NCBI RefSeq assembly: GCF_963675165.1
Contig: NC_087391.1
Span: 1,631,001-1,695,000, forward strand
DNA from: Halichondria panicea
Lineage: Eukaryota; Porifera; Demospongiae; Suberitida; Halichondriidae
DNA length: 64,000 bases
Reading direction: 5' to 3'
Of the stretch, positions 41,261-44,838 are shown one piece after another (positions within the stretch are counted from its first letter, which is position 1; each line of letters begins with the position of its first letter). The notes beneath the pieces were generated by a model. That model ran no database searches. It saw only the letters and a program-made list of their open reading frames with translations, and was not told the origin of the DNA. The translations under genes were made by a program, and so were the position numbers.

Positions 41261-41838
41261 TGTATGCAATTCCCTGTAGCGTCTATTCCAATTATGACAA
41301 TCTTATTGTATTTTTATTTTAATACATAGTATGAACATTTCATTAACAACAACAATGTAATGCATGAGTATATATAGGAGCTATAGTATGATTAAAGCAT
41401 GACAAGAGAATGAACATGAAGAAGTGGACTCTTGACTCTATTTGATATTCGTTACTTGTCACTTGTGTCGATGCCAGATGTAGCAGAAACTTCCCAAAGG
41501 ATGGTAGGTCATACTCCTAGAGAGCAGCTATCAGATACTTTGTTTCAGAAAATCAAGGCAAGGTAACCTGAAAAATTGGCCTGTGTGATAACTTTCTTGG
41601 ATTCTTTTCTCTGCATATAGGACTACTTGTTCCCTGCATATAATCGAGTGAAAATACCTAGCCTCGATTCAAGGCCGCTTTAGAAGCGGCCTGGTATACC
41701 TTGTATGCGCATGCGCTTACATTACCCCAAAAAGGGGGTAATCCGTGTATTTGTGGATACTGTCAGTAAAATAAACATGTATACTATTTTGTATTCTAAT
41801 TTTAGTGGTCCGTGTTACACACTTTACATATAGCAAAG

Positions 41839-42182
41839 ATGACTAGCTCGACTGACACTGAGTTCTCTTCCTCTCTGGCTTATGCCCTTTCTTGTGTGAA
41901 GAGAAGTTATTTAGTTCTGAGGGATAAACAGCTTGACACTCTACGGATGCTGTACGAAGGGAATGATGTTTTCCTGTGGGTTCCTACTGGATATGAAAGT
42001 CTATCTGCTACCAAACTTTGCCTTTTTTATTCGACAAGAAGCTGGATAGAATTAGTTCTCCTCCTAGTGAGCGTAGTATTGTCCCCTAGTGTCTCTAATG
42101 GTAGATCAAGTGACTAGTCTACATGATCGTGGTGTTCCTGCTGGTATACTCAGTGGAAACAAAGGGGTCGATAAGAAGTCCA
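41839..42182 (+). pseudogene. N-terminal fragment of a RecQ-like DNA helicase
   Basis: From ATG at 41,839: LRDKQLDTLRMLYEGNDVFLWVPTGY, resembling the RecQ Q-motif and motif I. The Walker A lysine region is altered: after PTGY comes ESLSATK, not GKS. The next part is decayed: SPPSERSIV, then a frame change, then a motif-Ia-like VDQVTSLHDRGVPAGILSGNKGVDKK in another frame. The remaining two thirds of a helicase are missing. The fragment starts about 180 bp from the transposon left end and is therefore inferred to be cargo or a component of that transposon. Confidence 0.6.
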
Positions 42183-42200
42183 AGTGAGTGCTTCACCTAC

Positions 42201-44680
42201 CCCCAGAATACTCATAAGGCAGTGCCAGTCCTCTATACAAGGCTCTAACTGCTCCAATCGTCCACTGCGAGTGTCCGCATCTCGCATATGTTTTTTGCTA
42301 CATCGCTGTCTTTCGCAAGTCATCTGATCGCCACCTGACATAACAGTAAGTTCAATAGAATCTTTCAAGTATGAATGTTTCTCGATCATTATGTCTATCA
42401 TGTCTGCGGCCTTTGCCTCATTCTTGTGTAGAACATCAAGGACTACAACCTCAGATTTTTTGGCCATCTCTGTGCTGTGGGGGTGCTTAATGTGACTGAC
42501 AACACACCGTTTGTACCGCTGGAGGGGCTTGATGTACTCGCACAGTATTCGACCGACTAGAACGACCAAATTTTCTTGGATGCCCTCAATGTCGGCCTTT
42601 GTAGGAAGGAAGTGAGTTATTTTTAGGGAACCCAGGTTAGGGGGGAAAAGGTTGAGACTGGAGATGGTCCTTTGCCAACAAACTGTACATTTGCACTAGC
42701 TCACCATGATGGTCACTACGTATGTCTCTAACGCCCTTTGTTTTAGCAACGTTGTCCCCCACGAACTTGAAACATGCACCCTCATCAATCCAGGCATCGA
42801 TAGGACGTTGGTACAGCTTGCTGATTTTCGTGACCAACTTCAACACGGCACAGTAACTGATAGTGACACTAAGATGATTCAGCCTGGAGTATACCTGTGA
42901 GTAATTCAATGTAATCATAATTATATAAGAGGAGATGGATTGGAAACGGAGGTAGCATCGCGTTACATTAATTTTTAAATCTGTGTACGGTTGTGCAGCA
43001 CTTGGGGAAACGATGTTTCTGGAATTAAGACCACTGCAATTAATGCATTCAAAGCCCCCCTAAAACAACATGCATTCTCATGCCCTCTATAATGGTGAGC
43101 ATCCTTTGGAAAAAATACGTTTTTCAAAATAGCTACAAAGAGTGTCATGCTCTGAGATCTTTATGAGTATGCTTCTAGCTAATGGTAATACTTAATTATC
43201 AGTGTACTGCATGTGTCAATCCATACGTTCCTCAGGTGACAGTTGGGAGTATACTGCAGGCACTATCTAGTCTAGATTTTACTAACGTTACAATCATACA
43301 TACATTTTGTAGCCTCGATTAAACCCTGGCCTAACGTGGCAAGGTAACTTCCGTTTCCAATCCCTCTCTGTGATATAATAATTATACCTGTATCTGAAAA
43401 TACGTAGTGGACACACATCATACATGTACATGTACATGTACAAACCTTTTTGTTTACTCTACAGTTGAAGAGTACGAGAGACAGAAACGACTGAATACCA
43501 CACATTCTTGTGTTACGCTCTTTCAAGAGAATTGCTGTGGCCATACACATCCCAGGGTAGTGACTCTCTCCGCGTTTATGCAAGTTCCTATGATCTGAAC
43601 GTCCTACGATCGTCTGGATAAGCCTAAATAGAATCGGAGACTTTCGCTGTAGTTCAGACACAGCCTGTTTCCACGATAACGCTTCCACATTGTCAATTGG
43701 AACCCGGTGAAATAGAGAGACAAACTCCCCAGAGTTACGACATAGAGTGGAACATTCGTCGTCAAGAATTTTCACCACACCCTCTACCAATTGGTCCTTC
43801 AGTGAAGGGCAAGAAAATGCTGCCTTGGCAATAGACTGAATGTTGCCACTATTCAGTGCCTGGCGTAATTTCTGGAGACTTTCATCTACTTCCGCAGTCA
43901 CTGTACTGGGTGAGCTCACTGTGATCTGTATATTGTTTAATTAATTAGTGTGATTTTGGTGTGTTTACAGTATCAGATCTGTTATCCTCACCATAACTGT
44001 TTCAGTCAAACCAGGCTTGGAAATATCTCTTGCAACACCTTCTGAACCTTTAAGTTAATGGCTATATATTAATTTACGTTCATTTCGTTTGTAGGTGGTT
44101 TAACATACCGTCAACAGAAGAAAACTGCTCGAGATTGGTCAACTCTAACAGCGGTGGCTGACGAGGACAGTCTGTGTGCGCTATGAAAAAGAGATGATTC
44201 CTGTCATCTACATATATGATTTGTTGCAATCAACCTACGTTCCTCCCTGGTTGAGAAAGCAAGCCTTCTTCCAGGTGCTCCTACTGTCAGACGTTTTGCT
44301 AGAGGTCTAGCATGGACTGTGTGAGGTGATGCTTCAAGCCCACTGGTGTCTTTAGTTCTCTTCCTACCTGATACCATAGGACTACAGATGGAAGCCTTAT
44401 TTCGACCCTGCTCAAAACCACACTTAGCCATACTTCTAAAGGCTTTAAGTTTAGACTCCAGAGACTGGAATTTGTTTGTGCAAGCTCTACAAATGTATGA
44501 AGATAGCCCATCACACTCACTAACTGGCAGCTCTAGCAATTTGCCAAGTCTGTCTGGAAGGCATCTTTGAACAGACTCTTTGCTGAACAGAGCTGAGCAG
44601 CGAGCAGAAGTAACAATGTTGCAGCACAATCTGCATATTCTGGTGGCTGCCATTGTCTTGAACGTTCTACCACCAACCAC
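42201..44680 (-). CDS. ZAD-like zinc finger + DUF6589 protein, five exons, 3'-truncated
   Basis: Exons (minus): 44,680-44,239; 44,171-44,109; 44,047-43,992; 43,925-43,446; 42,894-42,201, all with GT-AG borders and matching phases. Exon 1 encodes a ZAD-like finger (ICRLCC ... YICRACTNKF). Exons 4-5 encode the DUF6589 region: HYPGMCMATAILLKERN, YSRLNHLSVTISYCAVLKLV, FKFVGDNVAKTKGVRDIRSD, GGDQMTCERQRCSKKHMRDA, EPCIEDWHCLMSILG. In exon 5 a run of six C (minus strand, about 42,640) shifts the frame by one; one base fewer would keep it open. After the donor at 42,200 no further exon exists in the element. DUF6589 has no known function; its multi-copy distribution in invertebrates suggests a transposon origin. 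Likely inactive copy. Confidence 0.7.
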
Positions 44681-44838
44681 GCAGTCTTACGTATTTTTCC
44701 TTTGTGTACTTTGTCCGATTTTATCACTTGCTGTAAAGCGGACTTGAGTCGAGGCTAGAAAATACCCTCATGCAAGAACTTCGAAGCAAAAGAGGGGATG
44801 GGCGTTTATTCAAAATGGGCTTATTTTTGCGAGGGTGA

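Follow-up and report, generated by a model that had tools for sequence, protein, structure and literature searches.

The AcademH lineage of the Academ superfamily was reportedly introduced by Kojima in 2020 (Mob DNA 11:15). As far as the available text of PMC10045372 goes, AcademH elements are eukaryotic DNA transposons with target site duplications (TSDs) of 9 or 10 bp, AcademX elements have TSDs of 3 or 4 bp, and these lengths are tied to the encoded helicase and nuclease, respectively. AcademH is treated as a helicase-bearing group in the accessible part of PMC10799480, and a DEAD helicase/recQ_fam domain is given for fungal Academ copies in that of PMC6416283. A RecQ helicase alongside a DDD/E transposase is also found in KolobokH (PMC9587614, text available in part). 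Here we analyzed a candidate two-gene element in a 64,000-nt stretch of the genome of Halichondria panicea (the window; NC_087391.1, positions 1,631,001 to 1,695,000 of the forward strand). We regard it as a non-autonomous member of the AcademH lineage, with a probability of about 0.86 and a placement made by published descriptions rather than against a reference Academ protein. The lineage itself has already been described, and what is modestly new is its connection with the Pfam family DUF6589 and with the ZAD zinc finger.

The inverted ends suggested by the sequence-only reading were recovered by a mechanical search (arms 41658-41682 and 44734-44758, 25 nt, 92% complementary), and the element is bounded by TAGCCTCGATT.../...CGAGGCTA, i.e., it has TAG...CTA ends (Table 1). 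That reading had set the limits at 41658 and 44757 and the duplication at 8 bp (GAAAATAC); the right limit holds, while on the left the leading C is part of the TSD, so that the element starts at 41659, the duplication having been taken one base short (9 bp, GAAAATACC, in both flanks). Among the 18 family copies examined for ends (window included), L015-L017 have no left end, so that the TSD could be assessed in 15 (window and L001-L014). A perfect 9-bp TSD is present in all 15, in 15 different sequences, a constant length across copies that lies within the range described for AcademH; the ends and TSD of this family are not chance resemblances. Inside the element, two further inverted arms of 22 nt are separated by 393 bp (42932-43368), and position 43310 carries the TIR-like word TAGCCTCGATTAAA; they may mark an old intronic insertion.

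Table 1. Features of the window element, in window coordinates, and of a second DUF6589 element type of the same genome, in locus coordinates
Feature	Position	Strand	Basis and remarks
Whole element, internal-deletion derivative of a probable AcademH-type DNA transposon	41659..44757	.	3099 bp; TIRs, 9-bp TSD and empty site; junction shared with 14 other copies
Left target site duplication GAAAATACC	41650..41658	.	Flanks compared
Left terminal inverted repeat (TIR), begins TAGCCTCGATTCAAGG	41659..41682	+	Inverted-arm search
RecQ-like helicase remnant, 5' part	41839..42179	+	Matches L001/L002 at the DNA level, the gene continuing there into helicase domains; frame appears broken
Deletion junction	42178..42180	.	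2-bp microhomology GT relative to L001 and L002; ~2.46 kb of L001 missing here
DUF6589 N-half exon	42180..42695	-	PF20231, 58 bits; GDxxT (candidate second catalytic D, codon 42327-42329), DWH (42222-42230)
Open frame with GDN motif	42640..43059	-	Candidate first catalytic D, codon 42754-42756; translation compared by eye with L018, L020 and L024
Open frame with N-terminal ZAD zinc finger (CxxC...CxxC) of the putative transposase gene	44207..44686	-	zf-AD 21.6 bits, below cut-off 28
Right terminal inverted repeat	44734..44757	-	Inverted-arm search; 57-60 bp just inside, present in the four other copies checked, absent here
Right target site duplication GAAAATACC	44758..44766	.	Flanks compared
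Second DUF6589 element type	L032 2564-8782; L033; L034 702-8020; L035 918-7235		CAGT...ACTG ends; frame with XPG-like region and C-terminal cysteine cluster

The element was received by a host repeat (41385-41657 and 44758-44837 of the window) that has many copies in the genome, and a recoverable pre-insertion target had been claimed for it. When the two flanks were joined with a single GAAAATACC, they aligned over 93 bp with no net gap to three of the four fetched host-repeat copies (L036, L038, L039), which read through the site as expected of an empty target; the fourth (L037) matched the left flank only. The left anchor of this alignment is only 23 bp long because about 170 bp just left of it in L036, L038 and L039 are absent from the repeat of the window, which is therefore itself not intact.

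Genome searches with the DNA of each element end gave at least 17 long matches apiece (window included), and 17 loci were fetched as family copies (L001-L017). Two fuller copies without the deletion, L001 and L002, were obtained in this way. The junction word is present in the window and in all 14 short copies (L003-L016), and L017 is a right-end fragment. The earlier observation that both genes are cut at one place near 42,190 proved correct, with the junction now at 42178-42180. The common junction, together with the pairwise identity of 99.1-99.9% (median 99.4%) among the 13 deleted copies in which both ends are present, leads us to infer one deletion and a recent spread, and the window element appears to have been recently mobile. 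Since the deletion took the E half of the putative transposase and all of the helicase beyond its start, the window copy should not be autonomous.

L001 measures about 5.64 kb, and the longer relatives in general about 5.3-6.0 kb. A 2050-bp element (L002 6593-8642) has inserted into L002; its ends are of the same kind, and its TSD, GGCTTGAAC, is 9 bp long. The TAG...CTA ends of this nested element resemble those of L018, and it shows a RecQ match (C1:9270657-9271445) and no DUF6589 match. Further RecQ matches with one TAA and no DUF6589 match nearby are found among those listed in the RecQ search; such RecQ-only matches perhaps represent a derivative that retained the helicase. Small elements were seen as well: L040, L041 and L042 are 757-759 bp long with window-like TIRs and perfect 9-bp TSDs (23 matches of the left-end search resemble the left ends of this type, three of which were fetched), and L043 (573-2169) is a 1597-bp derivative with a ZAD exon, a RecQ fragment and a 9-bp TSD. 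No ends were found in L044, a place similar to L043.

The gene content of the window copy was interpreted with the help of the longer copies. The RecQ start of the window copy alone gave no Pfam match, and the identity of this remnant was taken from L001, in which Helicase_C (46 bits) and RecQ_Zn_bind (27 bits) are over their cut-offs, a DEAD piece (21 bits) is below its own, and DUF6589 reaches 109 bits. The PDB sequences closest to the L001 helicase are RecQ helicases, WRN being the first (4e-29), and in two other loci, L020 and L022, both DEAD and Helicase_C are over cut-off; the helicase described for AcademH is thus present in longer elements (L001, L020, L022), and the window copy has its 5' remnant only. 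In L001 the RecQ-like gene and the DUF6589 gene lie on opposite strands, tail to tail, within the same ends, and in both L001 and L002 the helicase is convergent with a ZAD-DUF6589 gene. Thus, the convergent RecQ-like start and ZAD-DUF6589 gene of the sequence-only reading were confirmed for the window (DUF6589 by its own Pfam match, RecQ via L001, the zf-AD score being below cut-off here), as was its proposal of an internal deletion in a larger element whose two genes face each other between the same termini, by L001. In the window copy the C-half of DUF6589 with the candidate catalytic E has been deleted, and both gene remnants appear by inspection to change frame, where a short intron is possible. 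Subtelomeric RecQ repeats were also considered and, judging from the accessible portion of PMC4522978, are not the present element.

The pairing of the two genes extends across the genome. Searches with the DUF6589 profile and with the L001 RecQ protein yielded 92 exon-level matches and 121 matches, respectively, and linkage was counted for 47 of the 92 DUF6589 matches (C-half or spanning; two of the 47 represent one place), leaving out the N-half matches and two C-half matches at places already represented. A RecQ-like match lies within 3 kb of 32 of the 47, and the orientation is convergent in 32 of 32; the 3-kb surroundings of all RecQ matches together cover no more than 0.6% of the genome. 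The remaining 15 DUF6589 matches have no RecQ match nearby (four are the fetched nuclease-type loci L032-L035, three cover a similar profile range, and eight are others). Distances computed from the C-halves of DUF6589 and RecQ are strongly correlated over 11 families (Mantel r = 0.90, reached by none of 20,000 permutations). As identities across these families go down to about 30%, the two genes have long travelled together, and the helicase, which had been proposed as the partner of DUF6589, is a long-standing one.

A further 14 loci with RecQ and DUF6589 were fetched (L018-L031, four families being represented by two copies each). Half of them (L018, L019, L021, L023, L024, L025 and L029) have TAG...CTA ends with a 9-bp TSD, the TIRs of L023 being imperfect. 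The TSD is 8 bp in L022 and L031 (the 8-mer of L031 is palindromic), and TIRs with no TSD were found in L020 and L030. No ends were accepted in three loci (L026, L027, L028); two candidate end pairs of L026 were rejected for having no TSD.

DUF6589 also occurs in a second type of element in the same genome (Table 1). L032 and L033 have an open frame of 1732 aa and 4-bp TSDs (GAAC and TGAA), and L034 has the 4-bp TSD CCTA and, in the frame scanned, a DUF6589 score of 23.2 bits, which does not reach the cut-off of 27. L035 is otherwise similar to these three, and no TSD was found for it, so that a 4-bp TSD is present in three of the four loci. Their C-termini have the blocks AEE(S/T)DTRIWLH, SPDTDVY and TGCD(F/Y)xSFF in common, which we take to be XPG-like from FEN1/XPG motifs; the XPG-like region gave no Pfam match even at E 10. 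Weak matches to Pfam TCR were seen in L034 and L035, and a weak lin-54 match in L032. By motif and TSD, L032, L033 and L034 correspond to AcademX as characterized in the available text of PMC10045372, whereas the window element has RecQ instead of the nuclease, TAG instead of CAGT ends, and a TSD of 9 bp.

In the DUF6589 core, GDxxT and DWH are kept in 10 of 10 aligned N-half sequences (one of them nuclease-type), and within the block L-x-x-E-H-x-N of the C-half, L, E, H and N are invariant in 8 of 8 helicase-type sequences. Visual comparison shows a GDN block upstream in the window and in L018, L020 and L024. From this conservation, GDN, GDxxT and the E may form a DDE triad. In the last block of the nuclease-type sequences L032 and L035, the E stands outside the column that it occupies in the helicase-type sequences. 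A PDB profile search with DUF6589 gave no match up to E 1, and single-sequence AlphaFold2 models of the window proteins had mean pLDDT values of 38 and 40, with no usable fold. Outside this genome, 65 pattern matches in genome contigs included no relatives, and 28 in viral contigs included one weak match (L045; 28 residues, 39%), which was judged from the neighbouring frames to be due to chance. None of 14 control genomes had a match in the DUF6589 and zf-AD profile searches, which we took as uninformative. DUF6589 is most likely the Academ transposase, presumably homologous to the reference Academ transposases; it had been proposed as a transposase-associated domain, and a transposase it probably is.

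A new superfamily had been claimed on account of the RecQ-DUF6589 pairing. This is not supported, because the combination of features (RecQ, a 9-bp TSD, and a parallel nuclease-like type with a 4-bp TSD) corresponds to AcademH/AcademX in the accessible text of PMC10045372. That DUF6589 occurs with either of two partners, and with a different TSD length in each case, agrees with what is stated there for Academ, and the element was filed as AcademH for this reason. If DUF6589 were a DDE transposase unrelated to Academ that was independently paired with RecQ, the occurrence of helicase/9-bp and nuclease-like/4-bp types in one genome would repeat the two-lineage pattern of Academ (PMC10045372, in the part available), and we consider such an undescribed superfamily quite improbable; it draws on the Academ link being made through descriptions and not through comparison with a reference Academ protein, on DUF6589 being named in no paper of the literature searched, and on the last catalytic block, which is unaligned between helicase-type and nuclease-type sequences. 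This unaligned E, together with the below-threshold score of L034, made us hold AcademH less firmly, and the undescribed superfamily more so, than we would have otherwise.

A KolobokH element, a Kolobok lineage with a RecQ helicase, would account for the helicase, which in one red-alga Kolobok also lies on the opposite strand; the available part of PMC9587614 gives Kolobok a 4-bp TTAA TSD and 5'-RR termini, so this reading, a very unlikely one, already fails on the varied 9-bp TSDs and TAG ends seen here. To a similarly slight degree we consider a MuDR/Mutator-like element with a captured helicase: a 9-bp TSD falls within the 4 to 10 bp given for MuDR/IS256 (PMC10045372, as far as its available text goes), but no MULE domain was found in the DUF6589 proteins scanned with Pfam, and the correlated distances of the two genes argue against a recent capture. 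That RecQ and DUF6589 fragments landed by chance in a MITE-like element is scarcely credible, since, although the window copy alone contains pieces only, L001, L018, L021 and L024 contradict it, both genes lie within the same ends in L001, and the pairing of 32 of 47 matches is always convergent. The AcademH assignment thus remains our preferred reading.

In ZAD-ZNF transcription factors the ZAD sits on a C2H2 array. The zf-AD profile gave 16 listed matches in the genome at E <= 0.001, of which 14 were over cut-off (28.5-39.1 bits); the list is incomplete, because the ZAD of the window itself (21.6 bits) is absent from it. All 16 listed matches have a RecQ or DUF6589 match no more than 6 kb away, and 12 of them have a short RecQ fragment at a distance of up to 300 bp, consistent with small deletion derivatives like L043. 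In 6 of the 11 AcademH-type families, a CxxC...CxxC finger of similar spacing precedes the DUF6589 N-half by about 2.0-2.4 kb. Pfam scans of four such families outside the window's own, and of the start of L032, gave a weak zf-AD match in L022 (11.4 bits) and none in L018, L020, L024 or L032, so that the ZAD proper is established only for the relatives of the window element, and the fingers of the other families may share a common origin with it. The likeness to ZAD-ZNF factors (zf-AD, PF07776) consists in the N-terminal C4 zinc finger domain, which is here part of the putative transposase gene and theirs of a C2H2-array protein (PMC10547256, in the portion available). In the accessible text of the literature searched for ZAD with transposons, a link between ZAD and a transposase was not seen. 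A tentative and rather unlikely proposition is that Academ transposases, with their N-terminal finger, were the source of the ZAD that forms the N-terminal module of the ZAD-ZNF transcription factors of insects; the domain may equally have passed from host to transposon.

Taken as an AcademH element, the window copy might have arisen and moved as follows. Its longer relatives encode two convergent genes, for a putative transposase and a RecQ-like helicase; the transposase has a C4 zinc finger at its N-terminus, which in the window's clade is a ZAD, and a presumed DDE-type core that is Pfam DUF6589. The transposase would bind the TIRs via the zinc finger, cut at TAG/CTA, and attach the ends to the two target strands with a stagger of 9 bp, and repair of the gaps would produce the 9-bp duplication; the helicase may help to unwind or replicate the DNA being moved. 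One internal deletion at the GT microhomology probably led to the loss of the helicase core and of the E half of the transposase, and the deleted derivative could then have reached at least 15 sites through trans-mobilisation.

If true, this would assign a function to the Pfam family DUF6589 and help to avoid annotating such genes as host genes. Because helicase-type and nuclease-type Academ elements with different TSD lengths would occur in one genome, the link between the accessory enzyme and TSD length could be tested. The association with ZAD also suggests a possible source of an important domain of animal transcription factors.
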